A DNA stretch of 6,303 bases. Origin: Candidatus Latescibacterota bacterium (GTDB lineage Bacteria; Latescibacterota; UBA2968; UBA8231). The position numbers were made by a program, and so were the translations under genes. The stretch covers positions 1 through 6,303 of the forward strand of contig JAJDTN010000302.1 in assembly GCA_022827165.1 (NCBI GenBank), in the 5' to 3' direction. Below, in pieces: positions 222 to 6,303 of this stretch. Position 1 is the first letter of the stretch. Each line of letters opens with the position of its first letter. The notes beneath the pieces were generated by a model. That model did no database searches, was not told the DNA's origin, and saw nothing but the letters and a program-made list of their open reading frames with translations.

Positions 222-1307
222 TCAGCTCCTCAGCTCCTTGAAGAAATCGAGATAGCGGGACGAGGCCGTGTCCCAGGTGTACTCGCGGCGGCAGTAGCGG
301 CGCGCCGCCGCGCCGGCGGCGCGGCGTTCCTCCGGGGTCAGATCGTAGAAGGCTTGCACCGCGCCGGCAAAGGCCGGGTAGTCGCCCGCCGGCGCCAGCC
401 ACCCCCCCTCGCGCACCGCTTCCACCAGGGCGTCCACGGCGAAGGCGACCACCGGCGTGCCGAAGTACATCGCCTCCAGGGGCGCGATGCCGAAGCCCTC
501 CACGTCGCCCTCGGTGGCCACGTTGGGCATGAGGAACAGGTCGCAGTGGCGCCGCAGCATGGAGCAGGTGTCGTCGTCGAGGACGCCGAGGAGCAGCACC
601 CGCCCGGGGTCGTCGAGGCCTTCCCGGGCCTGGCGCACGAGGCCGGCGTCGGGCCCGTCGCCGACGACGAGGAGGCGCACGTCGGCGGCCAGCAGCGGCA
701 TGCCGCGCTCGACGAACCGGGCCAGGCCCTTGCGCGGCACCATGCGCCCCACGTTGAGCAGCAGCCGGTCGCGGCCGAAGGCGACTCCGTGCTCCGCCTC
801 GAAGGCGCGGCGCAGCTCCTCGTCGCGCTCCGGCGGCGGCTCCACCGGCTCGGCCCCCAGGTGGATGAGGCGCATCCGCTCCCGGGGGACGCCCCAGGCC
901 TCGGCGGCGATGCGCCCGGAGTTCTCGCTGTACACGGCGATGCCGTGGCAGCGCAGGGTCCCGGCCCGCATCAGGGCCCGCGCCCGGCGGTCGGGGAAGG
1001 TCATCTCCAGGCCGTTGAGGGTGCAGCAGAAGCGGGCCCGGCCGCGCAGCGGCGCCAGGGTCCAGGCGAGGGAGGCGGCGACGCCGTCGCCGAAGTAGAC
1101 CAGGTCGACCCGCCGCGCCAGCAGCGCCAGGGCCGCCCGCAGCCACGCCCACGGCAGGAACCAGGCCAGGTGCAGGACCGAGTCGCGCCCCAGGGTCACC
1201 CGGGTCACCGGCAGCCGCTGGCTCAGGTAGGTGAAGAGCTTGAAGGCGTGGGTCTGGAGCCCGCCGAGGGAGGGCGGGTAGCGGCGGGAGACGAAGAGGA
1301 TGCGCAT
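222..1307 (-). CDS. Family 4 glycosyltransferase (GT-B fold)
   Basis: A complete 361-residue protein, the usual size for GT4 enzymes. The N-terminal domain opens with MRILFVSRRYPPSLGGLQTH (1-20), matching the family pattern of a first strand followed by a P-x-x-G-G loop. The C-terminal nucleotide-sugar domain has VGRMVPRKG (186-194), LLVVGDGPD (212-220) and the acidic EX7E motif in EGFGIAPLE (E270 and E278), followed by AMYFGTPVVA. GT4 enzymes are retaining transferases that move a sugar from a nucleotide donor to a lipid, polysaccharide or small acceptor, usually at the cytoplasmic membrane face. The donor and acceptor cannot be deduced here. The hydrophobic stretch at about 45-65 is part of the N-terminal domain and may touch the membrane. 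The ATG start has no clear purine-rich ribosome site upstream. The gene is followed after 2 bases by the PLP enzyme gene, and it diverges from the aquaporin gene. Confidence 0.93.
   Translation of the reverse strand: MRILFVSRRYPPSLGGLQTHAFKLFTYLSQRLPVTRVTLGRDSVLHLAWFLPWAWLRAALALLARRVDLVYFGDGVAASLAWTLAPLRGRARFCCTLNGLEMTFPDRRARALMRAGTLRCHGIAVYSENSGRIAAEAWGVPRERMRLIHLGAEPVEPPPERDEELRRAFEAEHGVAFGRDRLLLNVGRMVPRKGLARFVERGMPLLAADVRLLVVGDGPDAGLVRQAREGLDDPGRVLLLGVLDDDTCSMLRRHCDLFLMPNVATEGDVEGFGIAPLEAMYFGTPVVAFAVDALVEAVREGGWLAPAGDYPAFAGAVQAFYDLTPEERRAAGAAARRYCRREYTWDTASSRYLDFFKELRS
226..231 (-). promoter_or_regulatory. Ribosome binding site of the PLP enzyme gene
   Basis: GAGGAG on the minus strand, 6 bases before the GTG at 219. 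It lies inside the last codons of the glycosyltransferase gene. It supports the GTG start and coupling of the two genes. Confidence 0.6.
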
Positions 1308-1367
1308 GGCTGGAAGAGAGGGCTCCGGGTGCGGCGGGCGGGGAGGGCCACTAAGTTAAGCACCTCC
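1308..1367. promoter_or_regulatory. Divergent intergenic region, likely shared promoters
   Basis: These 60 bases separate the divergent starts of the glycosyltransferase (minus) and aquaporin (plus) genes, so promoters for both directions must lie here or reach into the genes. The only AT-rich patch is CTAAGTTAAG at 1351-1360. On the plus strand TAAGTT (1352-1357) fits a TANNNT -10 element, which would place the transcript start within a few bases of the aquaporin ATG at 1368. No convincing -35 hexamer is visible. A purine block GGGAGGG (1341-1347) is 20 bases from the ATG, too far for a normal ribosome site. Confidence 0.35.
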
Positions 1368-1374
1368 ATGGAGG
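1363..1374. repeat. Perfect 12-base palindrome spanning the aquaporin start codon
   Basis: CCTCCATGGAGG is its own reverse complement and is centred on the aquaporin ATG (1368-1370). It could be an operator-like dyad or chance. With no loop it cannot form an RNA hairpin without opening the central bases. Confidence 0.3.
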
Positions 1375-2012
1375 CCAGGGCATACGCGGCGGAGCTGGCG
1401 GGGACCTTCACCCTCGTCTTCATCGGCGCCGGCGCCGTGGCCGTGGGTGTGGGCGGCCTCCTGGGCGCCGCCTTCGCCCACGGCTTCGTCGTCCTCGCCT
1501 TCAGCTTCGTCTGGGGCCGCCGCGCCCCTCACATCAACCCCGCCGTCACCCTCGGGCTCTTCGTCGCCGGCGTGGTGAAGGCGGTCCATCTGCCCGCCTG
1601 CTGGCTCGCCCAGCTGTCCGGCGGCCTCGTCGCCGCCCTCGCCCTGCAGCTGACCGTGGGCGGCTTCACCGACTCCCTGGGCGCCACCGTCCCGGCCCCG
1701 GGCGTCAGCCACGGCCAGGCCCTCGTCCTGGAGGCGATCCTCACCTTCATGCTCGTCACCTCCATCCTCGTCACCGCCGTCAGCGGCCGCGGAGGCGAAC
1801 TCGGGCTTGCCGCCATCGGCCTCACCCTGATCTTCTGCATCCTCATGGGCGGGCCCCTCACCGGCGCCTCCCTGAACCCGGCCCGCACCCTGGGGCCGGC
1901 GGTGTTCACCGACACGCTGCACCTGTTCTGGATCTACCTGGTGGGGACCTTCCTCGGGGCGGCCCTCGCCGGCGGCCTCTACCGCGGACTGCTGAAGGGA
2001 GAGCACACTTGA
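1368..2012 (+). CDS. Aquaporin / MIP family channel with a TIP-like selectivity filter
   Basis: A complete 214-residue membrane protein of the major intrinsic protein family, which passively conducts water or small neutral solutes across the cytoplasmic membrane. Both half-helix signatures are present: NPAV at 57-60 and NPAR at 170-173. Hydrophobic segments lie at about 8-28, 33-50, 76-98, 117-138, 146-164 and 186-207, giving the expected six spans. Hand alignment to E. coli AqpZ and plant TIPs puts the aromatic/arginine filter at H38, I158, A167 and R173. This H-I-A-R set is seen in plant tonoplast aquaporins rather than in AqpZ (F-H-T-R) or GlpF (W-G-F-R), and hints at permeability beyond water (ammonia, urea or peroxide), which is inference. 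Loop B reads GRRAPHINPAV, one residue shorter than AqpZ. ATG 1368 was chosen because AYAAELAGTF is a typical family N-terminus. No well-spaced ribosome site precedes it. The stop overlaps the next start. Confidence 0.93.
   Translation: MEARAYAAELAGTFTLVFIGAGAVAVGVGGLLGAAFAHGFVVLAFSFVWGRRAPHINPAVTLGLFVAGVVKAVHLPACWLAQLSGGLVAALALQLTVGGFTDSLGATVPAPGVSHGQALVLEAILTFMLVTSILVTAVSGRGGELGLAAIGLTLIFCILMGGPLTGASLNPARTLGPAVFTDTLHLFWIYLVGTFLGAALAGGLYRGLLKGEHT
1995..2001 (+). promoter_or_regulatory. Ribosome binding site of the MlrC-type gene
   Basis: AAGGGAG lies 7 bases before the TTG at 2009, inside the last codons of the aquaporin gene. It decides in favour of the TTG start, since no ATG or GTG gives the family N-terminus. 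Confidence 0.6.
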
Positions 2013-3475
2013 GAATCGCCGTCGCCGGCTTCGCCCACGAGTCGAACACCTTCTCCGTGCAGCCCACCCGCCTCGAGGACTTCGGCATCCTCACGGGGCA
2101 GGAGATGCTGGCCCGGCATGCCGACACTTACCACGAGATCGCCGGGTACGTGGCCGCCGCCGAGGACCTGGGCCTGGAGCTGTGTCCCATCCTCTCGGCC
2201 TCGGCCACCCCCGCGGGGCCGGTCTCCCCCGAGGCCTTCGAGGAACTCTGCGGCCGCATCCTCGCCGGCCTCGGGGATCTGGGCGCCGTCGACGGGGTCC
2301 TGCTCGCTCTCCACGGCGCCATGGTCGCCGAGGAGTACCCCCACGGCGACGCCGAGGTCGTGCGCCGCGTGCGAGAGCTGGTGGGCCCGGAGATGCCCCT
2401 CGTCGTCACCCACGACTACCACGCCAACGTGCCGCCCTCCCTGGTGGAGGCGGCCGACGCCCTGGTCATCTACAAGACCAACCCCCACGTCGACCAGCGC
2501 GAGCGCGGCTGGGAGGCGGCGTCGATCCTGGCGCGCACCGCGCGCGGCGAGGTGAGGCCCGCCATGGCCCTGGCCCAACCGCGGCTGGTGCTCAACATCT
2601 GCTTCCACAACACCAGCCTGCCGCCCGTGCAGCCCATCCTGGCCCGCGCCGTGGAGCTGGAGCAGCGGGAGGGGATCCTCTCCTGCTCGGTCGCCGGCGG
2701 CTATCAGTACGCCGACGTGGAGTTCATGGGGCCGTCGGTGGTCGTCGTCGCCGACGGCGACCCGGAGCTGGCCCGCGCCGAGGCGGACGCTCTGTCAGCG
2801 GCGATGTGGGAAGCGCGGGATCAGATGATCCCGGGGCTGCCCGGCCCGGCCGAGGCGGTGCGCCAGGCCATGGAGAGCCGGGAGCACCCGGTGACCCTCC
2901 TCGACGTGGGCGACAACATCGGCGGCGGCTCCACGGGGGACTCGACCCTGATCCTGGAAGAGCTGCTCGCGCAGGGCGCCGACGGCTGGGTGGTGACCCT
3001 GTGGGACCCGGAGGCGGTGCGGGCCTGCGCCGCCGCCGGCATCGGCGCCGAGGTCGAGGTCGACGCCGGCGGCAAGACCGACGACATGCACGGGGATCCG
3101 CAGCGGGTGAAGGGCACGGTGCGCACCCTGTCCGACGGCCGCTACGAGGAACGCGAGCGCCGCCACGGCGGCGGCCGCCACCACAACCAGGGGCTCACCG
3201 CCGTCCTGCGCGTGCCCAGCGGCCCGGGGGAGGGCCTGCTCGTCCTCGACAGCAACCGCCAGCCTCCCATGAGCATCCACCAGATCACCAGTGCCGGCAT
3301 CGCGCCGGAGCAGCAGAAGATCCTGGTCGCCAAGGGCGCCGTCGCCCCGCGCGCCGCGTACGAGCCCGTGTCGCCGAGGCTGATCGAGGTCGACTCCGGC
3401 GGCGCCTGCTGGATGGGCCGCGGCCCCGGGGACTACCGGCGCGCCGACCGCGGCAAGTACGAGTGGAACCAGTAA
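2009..3475 (+). CDS. M81 family metallopeptidase / MlrC-type hydrolase
   Basis: A complete 488-residue protein, typical of the MlrC family (N-terminal DUF1485/M81 domain plus MlrC_C domain). Family marks in order: RIAVAGFAHESNTF (2-15), LLALHGAM (98-105), VTHDYHANV (133-141), YKTNPHVDQRERG (155-167), DVGDNIGGGSTGDST (299-313) and GLTAVLRV (395-402). D136, H138 and H160 sit where the family places its predicted zinc ligands. The founding member, sphingomonad MlrC, cleaves linearised microcystin; most relatives have unknown substrates, so a microcystin role should not be assumed. The extreme C-terminus (VDSGGACWMG) departs from the more usual VNTPG form. The start is TTG, sharing the sequence TTGA with the aquaporin stop, a 4-base overlap that implies translational coupling. 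The Gfo/Idh/MocA gene follows after 28 bases. No signal peptide is seen, so the enzyme is probably cytoplasmic. Confidence 0.93.
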   Translation: MRIAVAGFAHESNTFSVQPTRLEDFGILTGQEMLARHADTYHEIAGYVAAAEDLGLELCPILSASATPAGPVSPEAFEELCGRILAGLGDLGAVDGVLLALHGAMVAEEYPHGDAEVVRRVRELVGPEMPLVVTHDYHANVPPSLVEAADALVIYKTNPHVDQRERGWEAASILARTARGEVRPAMALAQPRLVLNICFHNTSLPPVQPILARAVELEQREGILSCSVAGGYQYADVEFMGPSVVVVADGDPELARAEADALSAAMWEARDQMIPGLPGPAEAVRQAMESREHPVTLLDVGDNIGGGSTGDSTLILEELLAQGADGWVVTLWDPEAVRACAAAGIGAEVEVDAGGKTDDMHGDPQRVKGTVRTLSDGRYEERERRHGGGRHHNQGLTAVLRVPSGPGEGLLVLDSNRQPPMSIHQITSAGIAPEQQKILVAKGAVAPRAAYEPVSPRLIEVDSGGACWMGRGPGDYRRADRGKYEWNQ

Positions 3476-3491
3476 CCCAACCGAAGAGAAC

Positions 3492-3497
3492 AGGAGG
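3492..3497 (+). promoter_or_regulatory. Strong ribosome binding site of the oxidoreductase gene
   Basis: A consensus AGGAGG lies 6 bases before the ATG at 3504, in the short gap after the MlrC-type gene. It fixes the start and suggests efficient independent translation within the operon. Confidence 0.75.
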
Positions 3498-3503
3498 AAG
3501 GAC

Positions 3504-4523
3504 ATGACCTTGCGAATCGGCATCGTCGGCGCCGGGGCCAACACCCGGGAGCGGCACATCCCCGGGTTCCAGGAGATCGACGGCGTGGAGGTGGTGGCCG
3601 TCTGCAACCGCTCCCGCGAGTCGGGGCAGCGGGCGGCCGACGACTTCGGCATCCCCGCCGTGTACGACGACTGGAAGGAGCTGGTCCACGCCGCCGAGGT
3701 GGACGCCGTCTGCATCGGCACCTGGCCCTACCTGCACTGCGACATCACCCTGGAGGGCCTGGCCGCCGGCAAGCACGTCCTCACCGAGGCGCGCATGGCC
3801 ATGAACCTCGAAGAGGCCCGGCGCATGCTGGCCGCGGCACAGGCCTCCGACAAGGTGACCATGATCGTGCCGGCGCCCATCAACCTGGAGACCGAGCCCA
3901 CCCTCCTCGGCATGGTCGCCGACGGCGTCTTCGGCGACTGGCTGGAGGTTCACGTCAGCGCCCTCACCGGCGGCTGGGACCCCTCCGCCCCCCTGCACTG
4001 GCGCCAGCGGCGCGACCTGTCGGGCAACAACATCATGGCCATGGGCATCCTCAACGAGACGGTGCGGCGCTACGTCGGCCACGACCGCGCCCTCATGGCC
4101 CACGCCCACATCTTCACCGGCGAGCGCACCGACCCCGAGAGCGGCACCCCGAAGCCGGCGGACGTGCCCGAGAGCCTCGGCATCCTCTCCGAGCTGGAGA
4201 GCGGCGCCACCGCCGTCTACCACGTGAGCAGCGTCGCCGCCCACGGCGGCATCTCCTTCGAGATGCACGGCACCAAGGGGTCGATCCGCCTGGAGGAGGA
4301 CAAGGCCCTCGTGGCCCTGGACGACGGCGGCTGGCGCGAGCTGGTGGTGGAGCCGGAGAAGCAGTGGGGCTGGAACGTGGAGGCCGACTTCGTCGACGCC
4401 ATCCGCGACGGCCGGCCGGTGACCCACACCAACTTCGAGGACGGCGTGAAGTACATGGCCTTCACCGAGGCGGTGCAGGTCAGTTTCCGCGAGGGCCGGA
4501 GGGTGGTGCTGGGGGAGCTGTAG
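3504..4523 (+). CDS. Gfo/Idh/MocA family oxidoreductase with EAR in place of EKP
   Basis: A complete 339-residue protein, the usual family length. The N-terminal Rossmann domain begins LRIGIVGAGANTRERHIPGF (3-22), followed by VVAVCNRSRE (30-39) and VDAVCIGT (66-73). The C-terminal half (about 125-339) is the alpha/beta substrate domain, with FEMHGTKGSIRLEED (252-266) typical of the family. Classical members carry GKHVxxEKP, whose lysine takes part in NAD(P)-dependent sugar oxidation; here it is GKHVLTEARMAMN, so EKP is replaced by EAR at 95-97. I recall other annotated members with TEARMA, so this looks like a subfamily trait rather than a mutation, but normal dehydrogenase chemistry is doubtful. 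The usual second-domain lysine/histidine pattern is partly recognisable as GNNIMAMGILNETV (174-187), with no clear DxxxH. It is probably the last gene of the aquaporin-MlrC transcription unit. The substrate is unknown. Confidence 0.92.
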   Translation: MTLRIGIVGAGANTRERHIPGFQEIDGVEVVAVCNRSRESGQRAADDFGIPAVYDDWKELVHAAEVDAVCIGTWPYLHCDITLEGLAAGKHVLTEARMAMNLEEARRMLAAAQASDKVTMIVPAPINLETEPTLLGMVADGVFGDWLEVHVSALTGGWDPSAPLHWRQRRDLSGNNIMAMGILNETVRRYVGHDRALMAHAHIFTGERTDPESGTPKPADVPESLGILSELESGATAVYHVSSVAAHGGISFEMHGTKGSIRLEEDKALVALDDGGWRELVVEPEKQWGWNVEADFVDAIRDGRPVTHTNFEDGVKYMAFTEAVQVSFREGRRVVLGEL

Positions 4524-4579
4524 GCGATTCCGGAGGCAGGGGGCGCGACGGCGGCACTCAGTTGGTCTGTGGTTCGGCC

Positions 4580-4602
4580 GGGGGGCGCTGCCCGGCACCC
4601 CC
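4580..4602. terminator. GC-rich hairpin between convergent genes, possible terminator
   Basis: GGGGG at 4581-4585 pairs with CCCCC at 4598-4602. After one mismatch, two further G-C pairs close a small loop. It sits in the 78-base gap between the convergent oxidoreductase (ends 4523) and the low-GC cassette gene, and touches the stop codon of the latter (4604-4602). No T-run follows on either strand, so it is not a canonical intrinsic terminator. Confidence 0.3.
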
Positions 4603-5198
4603 TACTTCAGGGAGTCTCTGATCGCCTCCAGAATCTCATTGGTAGGATAGTCTGAGAATCTGGAAGATCTGGTGCCCCTGGAGTACGGCTCCTGAAAGTC
4701 GGCATAGGCAAAGAGAATTTCGTCGACAGAGACAGGAGTTGCTCCGGCCTCGCTGACGAGCCAGGTGCGCACGACTTCCACTGCTTTCTCGTGGTCTCCA
4801 TCATGGGGACAAACATCGATCCCGGACAAATCAGAAAGCGCCTTCTTGTACCTGTATGGTTTCTTCTCCAAGATCAGGCACTTTCTGTCAGCCCCCTGAG
4901 ACATCTGCCTGAGGCCAAAGTCCATTCCCAACTCGAAGGGGATATTCATCCGGAAGTATTCTCCCTTCCTGGACGCGCGGCACCTGCTCAGATCATGTAT
5001 GCAATACTTGGACCCCTGTAGCAGTCCCCAGATCTTGTCAACCCTGTTCTCGAGGGAGTCTCTGCGTTCCGTTGCAAGTCTCGGGAAGAACCCCAAATAC
5101 ACGACGCAGAAGAAGATGGCCCGAAGAATCGGATCGTAGTCCTCATCAAAAGGGCAGTTGACAAAGACCGAACTCTCAAAGGACGGCTCGGTCACCAA
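4602..5198 (-). CDS. Uncharacterised VFVNCPFD protein, probable TIR/Rossmannoid-like domain
   Basis: A complete 198-residue protein with no assigned function that I can name. I recall uncharacterised bacterial relatives sharing its motifs: VFVNCPFD (11-18), RVDKIWGLL (52-60), YCIHDLSR (65-72), MNIPFELGMDFG (84-95), CLILEKKPYRYKKALSDLSG (107-126) and FSDY (181-184). Read as secondary structure it alternates strand and helix five times: strand 11-16, helix 21-35, strand 37-42, helix 51-62, strand 65-70, helix 87-97, strand 107-111, helix 116-125, strand 127-131, helix 136-148. That order, with E89 at the start of the third helix, resembles TIR and nucleoside deoxyribosyltransferase-like folds that act on NAD or nucleotides; this is inference. 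The last 50 residues form an extra tail. The start is TTG 5198 with AAGGGA 8 bases upstream, and GTG 5195 is an alternative. It lies 5 bases after the DUF2188 gene. G+C is about 50%, far below the flanks. No signal peptide or clear membrane span was seen. Confidence 0.85.
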   Translation of the reverse strand: MVTEPSFESSVFVNCPFDEDYDPILRAIFFCVVYLGFFPRLATERRDSLENRVDKIWGLLQGSKYCIHDLSRCRASRKGEYFRMNIPFELGMDFGLRQMSQGADRKCLILEKKPYRYKKALSDLSGIDVCPHDGDHEKAVEVVRTWLVSEAGATPVSVDEILFAYADFQEPYSRGTRSSRFSDYPTNEILEAIRDSLK

Positions 5199-5203
5199 GC
5201 CCT

Positions 5204-5428
5204 CTATCCCTTCCGCCGCGAAGGATCGTTGCCATATGAGTTTCGGTCCCTGATTTGCCCATCTCGGCCATGGATGAACAGTTCTGTCTTCTGATCCTTG
5301 GCTCTTTCCCGAGCTTCTGCAATCGCTTCCTGCTGAGTATCATGGATACTGGCAACCCTCTTCGAGCCCGTGCTTCTGACGGCCCACTTCCCCTGACGAG
5401 GGACCACATGCTGGCTCTTCCTTGTCAT
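5204..5428 (-). CDS. DUF2188 domain protein
   Basis: A complete 74-residue protein filled almost wholly by a DUF2188 domain. Family marks are QHVVPRQGKWAV (6-17), the HDTQQEAIAEAR helix (29-40) and the closing HGRDGQIRDRNSYGNDP (53-69). The biochemical role of DUF2188 is unknown to me; the domain is small, basic and probably cytoplasmic. The ATG at 5428 has a near-perfect GGAGGTGA 6 bases upstream (5442-5435), so the start is secure and expression is likely to be strong. The gene is followed after 5 bases by the VFVNCPFD gene on the same strand, so the two almost certainly form one transcript. This arrangement, a small basic first gene and a larger likely enzyme second, is compatible with a regulator or antidote plus effector pair, but nothing in the sequence proves that. 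Base composition is clearly lower in G+C than in the flanking genes. Confidence 0.88.
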   Translation of the reverse strand: MTRKSQHVVPRQGKWAVRSTGSKRVASIHDTQQEAIAEARERAKDQKTELFIHGRDGQIRDRNSYGNDPSRRKG

Positions 5429-5434
5429 TGCAAG

Positions 5435-5442
5435 TCACCTCC
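5435..5442 (-). promoter_or_regulatory. Strong ribosome binding site of the DUF2188 gene
   Basis: GGAGGTGA on the minus strand, 6 bases before the ATG at 5428. It closely matches the anti-Shine-Dalgarno complement and confirms this short gene. Confidence 0.75.
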
Positions 5443-5484
5443 ACGCAATATGCTGCTGCTTGGGTGAGAACTCATGGGCAAAAG

Positions 5485-5497
5485 CCATTGTCAATGG
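5485..5497. repeat. 13-base inverted repeat with an embedded TTGACA, possible operator/-35
   Basis: CCATTG-T-CAATGG is a 6-base inverted repeat about one base. On the minus strand it contains the consensus -35 hexamer TTGACA (5494-5489), 61 bases before the DUF2188 start. A repressor site over a -35 element would suit an autoregulated cassette. No good -10 hexamer is found 16-18 bases downstream, so the promoter reading is weak. Confidence 0.3.
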
Positions 5498-5557
5498 ACG
5501 ATACGCTCCGTGCTGCGTCTCTTCAACATGCGTTCTTGCAGGACCCTGAGGACGCCA

Positions 5558-6303
5558 TCAATCAGGTGCATGGACGCCGTTGCAGAGCACGTCGAAGAGG
5601 TCGTAGTTGCGCATCTCGCCGCGCTCCAGGGCCTCGGCCGTCTCGGCGCGCAAAGGCCGGTTGACCACGAAGGGCACGGTCGCCTCGTGCAGGCCGCCGT
5701 GGGAGCGCAGCCCCTCCCGGACGTGGGACAGGTCGTGCCAGTCCGGGGTGCGCCCGAGGACGGTGCCGCCGTCGGCCAGGACCACCAGGTCGCCGATGCG
5801 GTCGGGCGGTAACTGGTAGAGGCCGGCCGCCTCCTCCCGGGTGTGGACGGCCTCGACGCCTGGCACCTCTGCCAGCACCCGCGCCGCCCTCTCCAGGCTT
5901 TCAGGCTCGACGTAGACGGTGGCGTACGAGCCCAGGGCCCCGTGGTGGACCACGTAGGGATCGGTGATCGGCAGGATCACCCGCGCGTCAGGCACCCCCT
6001 CCTCCCGCAGCAGGCTCTCCAGGTACTCCACCTTCGGCGAGCCGTCGGGCCTCGTCTTGGCGTTCATGCCGTGATCGGCGGTGACGGCGACCACGGCCCC
6101 GGCGCGGTGCAGGCGGCCGAGGACGGTGTCCAGCCGCGCGTGGAAGGCCAGGGCCTCCGGCTCCTCCGGCGCGTAGCGGTGCTGCACGTAGTCGGTCGTC
6201 GACAGGTAGGTCACGAGGGGGCCGCCGCGCTCCAGGAGGCAGGCGCCGGCCTCCAGGCAGTACACGCTCGCCTCGGGGTCGTAGATCCCGGGGGCCGGAC
6301 CGC
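5558..6303 (-). CDS. phnA: Phosphonoacetate hydrolase-like enzyme (alkaline phosphatase superfamily), C-terminal part
   Basis: The last 247 residues of a gene running off the right edge; the full family length is about 410, so roughly the first 170 residues are missing. The metal ligands known from Pseudomonas fluorescens phosphonoacetate hydrolase (D211/H215, D250/H251, H377) have matching residues here. TTDYVQH gives D37 and H41, TADHGMN gives D76 and H77, and SHGGLHE gives H201 (fragment numbering); the 39-residue spacing between the two Asp residues is identical. These two-zinc enzymes hydrolyse the carbon-phosphorus bond of phosphonoacetate to acetate and phosphate in phosphonate catabolism. 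The first zinc-site residues (Asp29 and the nucleophile Thr68) are outside the window, so a related phosphodiesterase/pyrophosphatase cannot be fully excluded. The sequence ends NYDLFDVLCNGVHAPD; the family core ends at about DVLCNG, and base composition drops sharply right after it. The DUF2188 gene begins 129 bases downstream on the same strand. Confidence 0.85.
   Translation of the reverse strand, partial: GPAPGIYDPEASVYCLEAGACLLERGGPLVTYLSTTDYVQHRYAPEEPEALAFHARLDTVLGRLHRAGAVVAVTADHGMNAKTRPDGSPKVEYLESLLREEGVPDARVILPITDPYVVHHGALGSYATVYVEPESLERAARVLAEVPGVEAVHTREEAAGLYQLPPDRIGDLVVLADGGTVLGRTPDWHDLSHVREGLRSHGGLHEATVPFVVNRPLRAETAEALERGEMRNYDLFDVLCNGVHAPD

Follow-up and report, generated by a model that had tools for sequence, protein, structure and literature searches.

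The window analysed here is a stretch of 6,303 nucleotides from a Candidatus Latescibacterota bacterium, and it contains a two-gene cassette of approximately 830 bases on the minus strand. The first gene (5204..5428) encodes a 74-residue DUF2188 protein from an ATG start, and a ribosome-binding site, GGAGGT (5437..5442, minus strand, read from the sequence), lies 8 nt 5' of that start. The second (4602..5198) follows after a spacer of 5 bases and encodes a 198-residue protein with the motif VFVNCPFD, referred to below as the TIR-like protein and considered a candidate NAD-degrading effector; its TTG start is consistent with the N-termini of homologues. The G+C fraction of the cassette is 0.538 (0.551 for the DUF2188 gene and 0.531 for the TIR-like gene), against 0.727 in the remainder of the window. 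An earlier note on this DNA had described these two genes, the strong ribosome site, the 5-base gap and the low G+C of the cassette in a high-G+C setting, all of which the coordinates and compositions bear out.

The cassette occupies a strain-specific segment (4528..5573), as judged by blastn against contig L207 of a close relative, G844, which is approximately 92% identical and belongs to the same phylum as the Latescibacterota locus in our collection (L001). Both conserved flanks lie outside the module as context: a Gfo/Idh/MocA oxidoreductase gene on the plus strand (3504..4523; PF01408; 90% identity to G844) and a type I phosphodiesterase gene on the minus strand (5558..6301; PF01663; 92% identity), which runs off the window. 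The G844 contig matches the window from 745 to 4527 at 91.7% and from 5574 to 6298 at 92.7%, and between these two blocks 617 bases with no blastn match to the window replace positions 4528-5573 and contain an open reading frame (ORF) of 156 amino acids (L207:3823-4293). In another relative, G830, a pair of genes that appear by eye to be RelE-like and HTH-like directly follows the same oxidoreductase gene (L213:335-1004). The presence of different genes at the same site in G844 and G830 indicates that this site accepts various accessory genes.

The 198-residue protein has no match in Pfam, NCBIfam or PADLOC, and 23 sampled members of its family, which comprises at least 7,999 proteins and has no family name, gave only weak Pfam matches. 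Its predicted model has an NDT/TIR fold of the flavodoxin-like TIR kind; the best fold matches of the model are nucleotide hydrolases, a result that we count against the reading favoured below. In profile comparison, three CAP12/PycTIR sequences (three of five PF10137 places, L220 and L222 [partial match] being left out) outscored all 225 other proteins, the similarity spanning residues 10-144. The residues that characterize TIR NADases, namely a catalytic glutamate, an NAD-binding arginine and asparagine, and an aspartate from the dimer mate, appear to be represented by E89, R83, N85 and D123, all of them invariant across the 23 diverse family sequences over which conservation was scored. The proposed catalytic glutamate, in an FELG motif (codon at 4932..4934, minus strand), aligns with E84 of SfSTING; the proposed NAD-binding residues R83-x-N85 (codons at 4944..4952, minus strand) have the spacing of SfSTING R78-x-N80; and D123 (codon at 4830..4832, minus strand), the proposed counterpart of SfSTING D110, lies in an S-D-L-x-G motif whose S122 is also invariant and which aligns with the P-S/T-D-x-x-G motif of CAP12/PycTIR. 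The counterpart of S10 is less plain. The window protein does not match PF10137 (CAP12-PCTIR_TIR) at its cut-off of 24.7 bits, and six of the 23 family members match it weakly (best E 0.0091); since the cut-off is not reached, we class the protein as related to this family and not as a member. It is predicted to be a TIR-like protein akin to the TIR NADases of the CAP12/PycTIR class and to degrade NAD.

Relatives of the enzyme that lack an adjacent DUF2188 gene frequently have some other ORF upstream, which in 13 of 16 loci ends between -11 and +34 bases from the start of the enzyme gene (L021, L023, L027, L029, L105, L107, L242, L244 and others). These ORFs are usually short, in many cases rich in lysine and arginine, and often share a similar short helix-like C-terminus; they were judged by eye, and in DNA rich in G+C many ORFs arise by chance. 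They hint that the enzyme is controlled by a partner.

The 74-residue protein matches PF09954 (E 1e-25; 90.1 bits against a cut-off of 22), phrog_3220 (E 6.2e-25) and, over its full length, the PADLOC model PDC-S16 (113.8 bits), in which we take the S to denote a single-gene candidate. Its predicted model has the strand order b-b-b-a-b-b (pLDDT 85.3), and a structural search with that model returned no informative match. The C-terminal sequence D-P-x-P-P-K-G is found in 27 of 58 DUF2188 proteins, the window protein reading D-P-S-R-R-K-G. The abbreviation PDC means phage defence candidate (PMC11514479), and S16 is not named in the parts of that paper that were consulted. Judged by titles and opening abstract lines, no defence study was evident among the papers naming DUF2188, and PDC-S16 is named nowhere in the literature set searched.

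Where the enzyme gene is absent, DUF2188 genes head a variety of defence operons. DUF2188 heads CBASS genes in L136 (TRIP13 and CD-NTase) and L139 (CD-NTase and HNH-SAVED), and precedes a CBASS-type phospholipase followed by CD-NTase and E1-E2 genes in L147; L153 is of the same type, its phospholipase alone having been scanned. It likewise precedes ThsB-type TIR genes (L037, E 7.2e-98; L143, E 4.2e-71), multiubiquitin genes (L133; L152, with E2 and ThiF, at a called distance of 348 bases), type I and type III methyltransferase genes (L155; L157, at a distance of 270 bases) and Csy1 (L160). Many DUF2188-headed operons are, by eye, divergent from an HTH gene and an ImmA/IrrE-like gene. Two similar proteins of approximately 390 amino acids, encoded 11-12 bases after DUF2188 beside HTH and ImmA-like genes (L134:5771-6958 and L138:5787-6959), have no PADLOC match and, for the L138 protein, no Pfam match; they are possibly another defence effector.

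Overall, eight of 23 genes downstream of enzyme-free DUF2188 match PADLOC (E <=1e-20) and 15 do not. Approximately five of 111 control ORFs do so, a count that assumes that same-name profiles hit one gene and that is at most 10; the controls were the longest ORFs found in 20 randomly chosen regions of genomes from this set, unmatched for gene size and operon position. By Fisher's test, p is 1.7e-4 for 8/23 against 5/111, 0.003 against 10/111, and 0.03 for eight of 32 distinct loci against 10/111, the last comparison also counting loci without a usable downstream gene. These loci derive from two sets of 36 and 23 DUF2188 places, of which 4 and 1 adjoin the enzyme and 18 and 16 were fetched; the remaining 14 and 6 are nearly all lower-scoring, and several look metabolic by eye. 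No downstream gene was obtained at 11 of the 34 fetched loci (L132, L135, L142, L146, L149, L154, L156, L158, L080, and L161/L162, which repeat L151), so that the strictest count is 8/34. DUF2188 also adjoins metabolic-looking genes, which we count against a defence reading.

In three genomes (L066, L141 and L142) DUF2188 follows a gene that by eye is ribonucleotide reductase-like. Klebsiella accounts for 341 of the 452 plasmid records that match DUF2188, with approximately 57% identity among the matches listed; in the one examined (L036), DUF2188 lies upstream of an annotated DUF2384/RES pair. There are no Klebsiella plasmids among the 17 plasmid records that match the TIR-like protein.

A single scan of the genome collection yielded 33 loci with a TIR-like gene. 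The 20 loci that rank highest by E-value (L001-L020, E <=1e-42), whose best segments are 43-58% identical to the window protein, all have DUF2188 immediately upstream on the same strand; three more (L022, L026 and L032) have it upstream within approximately 90 bases, for a total of 23/33. A weak DUF2188 match lies farther upstream in L028, DUF2188 lies downstream in L024, and the other eight loci, mostly more distant relatives and including the broken L033 (45% segment), have none. The named hosts of L001-L020 include Alphaproteobacteria, Xanthomonas, Rheinheimera, Latescibacterota, Gemmatimonadetes, Thermoanaerobaculia and a Catalimonadaceae isolate. Among 385 alphaproteobacterial genomes we found 36 DUF2188 matches in 35 genomes and nine TIR-like loci in seven. 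In all four TIR-like loci scoring above 240 bits, the profile match starts 35-42 bases after a same-strand DUF2188 match, one of the four being in G003, on which the sample was centred and where the pair was already known; none of the five lower-scoring loci in these genomes adjoins DUF2188. Pairing in the 385 genomes is far above chance. The adjacency that the earlier note had proposed to score is thus found among the closer relatives of the pair.

The two proteins also vary together. Their distances correlate (r 0.79) over 19 of 25 linked pairs (L010, L018, L038, L070, L073 and L081 were left out). The nearest relative of an enzyme-linked DUF2188 is itself enzyme-linked in 24 of 25 cases, and over 58 DUF2188 proteins the nearest relative carries the same label at a rate of 0.90, against a mean of 0.50 and a maximum of 0.76 with shuffled labels; the enzyme-linked proteins are not a blind sample, as most came from the scan made with the enzyme. 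In some relatives the reading frames of the pair overlap (by 4 bases in L013 and L241).

In two of the 17 plasmid records the match covers 80% or more of the TIR-like protein. Eight virus-like contigs carry the TIR-like gene, five of them with DUF2188 directly upstream, and the gene is absent from all 50,697 phage records searched. One Sinorhizobium plasmid (L038) carries a disrupted pair close to transposase genes. In L239 the pair lies within a structural cluster resembling that of a phage or gene transfer agent (portal-, capsid- and terminase-like neighbours, by eye), and on the virus-like contig L241 its neighbours on both sides look TIR-like by eye, a DUF4062-like gene being found farther upstream.

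With its conserved pairing, patchy scatter, variable site and defence-type anatomy, the cassette behaves as the mobile accessory-like unit that had been proposed. A defence role is likely, with evidence on both sides: the TIR-like NADase active site and the position of DUF2188 at the head of defence operons speak for a defence-type module, and the absence of defence enrichment around the pair speaks against it. The expectation that neighbours would be rich in known defence genes failed, PADLOC matches being no more frequent among 114 ORFs located up to 5 kb from one of 20 pairs than among the 111 ORFs from random regions.

We consider it probable that the cassette is a mobile two-gene immune module of the abortive-infection kind, consisting of a stand-alone TIR-like NADase effector and a DUF2188 partner, a reading that draws directly on how the genes are laid out, paired and inherited together, on the variable site, on the fold and conserved active site of the enzyme, and on the heading of defence operons by DUF2188. 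The two genes would be translated together. DUF2188 would bind or sense, either holding the enzyme silent or relaying a signal of infection; infection would free the enzyme to cleave NAD(+), and growth would halt before phage release. DUF2188 might do a comparable, common job in the other defence operons that it heads.

The leading alternative, which we regard as unlikely, is a plain toxin-antitoxin pair in which a TIR-like toxin stops growth, DUF2188 is its direct antitoxin, and the pair is kept for plasmid or genome stability and not for phage defence. The small first gene, the 5-base gap, the overlapping frames in some relatives and the co-inheritance of the pair all fit it, as does the different small upstream ORF, often K/R-rich, of relatives without DUF2188, as if partners had been swapped; hyperpromiscuous antitoxin domains such as Panacea exist, according to the part of that source consulted (PMC10440598). 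However, DUF2188 also heads CBASS, restriction-modification and ubiquitin-like operons, whose effectors are otherwise controlled, so that effector-specific neutralisation fails to explain its range. Rather less probable is that the protein is an N-glycosidase of the DNPH1, MilB or nucleoside deoxyribosyltransferase type that destroys (deoxy)nucleotides, either for defence or for cleaning the pool. Against this, seven nucleoside deoxyribosyltransferase sequences (of 16 PF05014 places; L229 and eight weaker ones were left out) scored at noise (0.6), a level equalled by 33-201 of the 225 other proteins and well apart from the three CAP12/PycTIR sequences that beat them all, and the combination of R-x-N-x-x-x-E with S-D-L-x-G belongs to the CAP12/PycTIR NADases.

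It is doubtful that the genes form an ordinary accessory metabolic or stress pair with no role in conflict. The metabolic flanking genes and the unenriched surroundings would suit such a pair, but its patchy distribution (7/385 alphaproteobacterial genomes), the other gene that a close relative carries at this site, the matches on plasmids and virus-like contigs and the company that DUF2188 keeps with defence operons would not. Least probable is a Thoeris-like split, in which a ThsB-like TIR makes a signal nucleotide that acts on an effector encoded at another place in the genome and DUF2188 senses infection. DUF2188 does precede ThsB-type TIRs in L037 and L143, but the TIR-like protein has no sequence link to two ThsB-type TIRs compared, and no ThsA name occurs among the PADLOC matches (E 1e-20) of the 114 genes lying up to 5 kb from the 20 pairs.

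Returning to the immune module, we suggest tentatively, and with less confidence than for the pair itself, that DUF2188 may be a general immunity component heading CBASS, ubiquitin-like, TIR and restriction operons. The present pair might then be its simplest form, with an enzyme from a large family of TIR-like NADases whose members lacking DUF2188 use another small upstream partner. A candidate function is thereby offered for two uncharacterised families together, DUF2188 and the TIR-like family. If DUF2188 acts alike in these operons, it would constitute a shared layer of immunity that models built system by system have missed, and a pair of this size would be a compact place to learn what that layer does.

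Immunity by TIR effectors is already known; the cassette would add to it an unexplained partner domain that is shared with other systems. The earlier note knew of no described system with this pair, a statement to be qualified in that PADLOC-DB already has DUF2188 alone as the candidate PDC-S16; the cassette differs from that candidate in pairing it with an enzyme that matches no PADLOC model. In profile and in its R-x-N-x-x-x-E and S-D-L-x-G motifs the TIR-like protein resembles the CAP12 TIR-STING of CBASS (SfSTING) and the PycTIR of Pycsar, but it has no STING or cyclic-nucleotide receptor domain, lies below the PF10137 cut-off and belongs to a family with a distinct VFINCPFD N-terminus. 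Unlike CBASS and Pycsar, the window has no cyclase gene, no CD-NTase being found among its proteins, and the partner is DUF2188. The nucleoside deoxyribosyltransferase/DNPH1 superfamily (PF05014) differs in that the protein has neither a Pfam match nor profile similarity to the seven members compared. Thoeris ThsB, to which the sequence shows no link in the two TIRs compared, SPARTA and, as far as the portion of its source consulted describes it, SpbK also differ, the window containing neither ThsA nor an Argonaute. A parallel for the partner is Panacea, a single small domain that accompanies numerous unrelated effectors (PMC10440598). Nothing was found in which DUF2188 neutralises a toxin; like Panacea it is a small domain found with many unrelated effectors, and it differs in preceding whole multi-gene defence operons.
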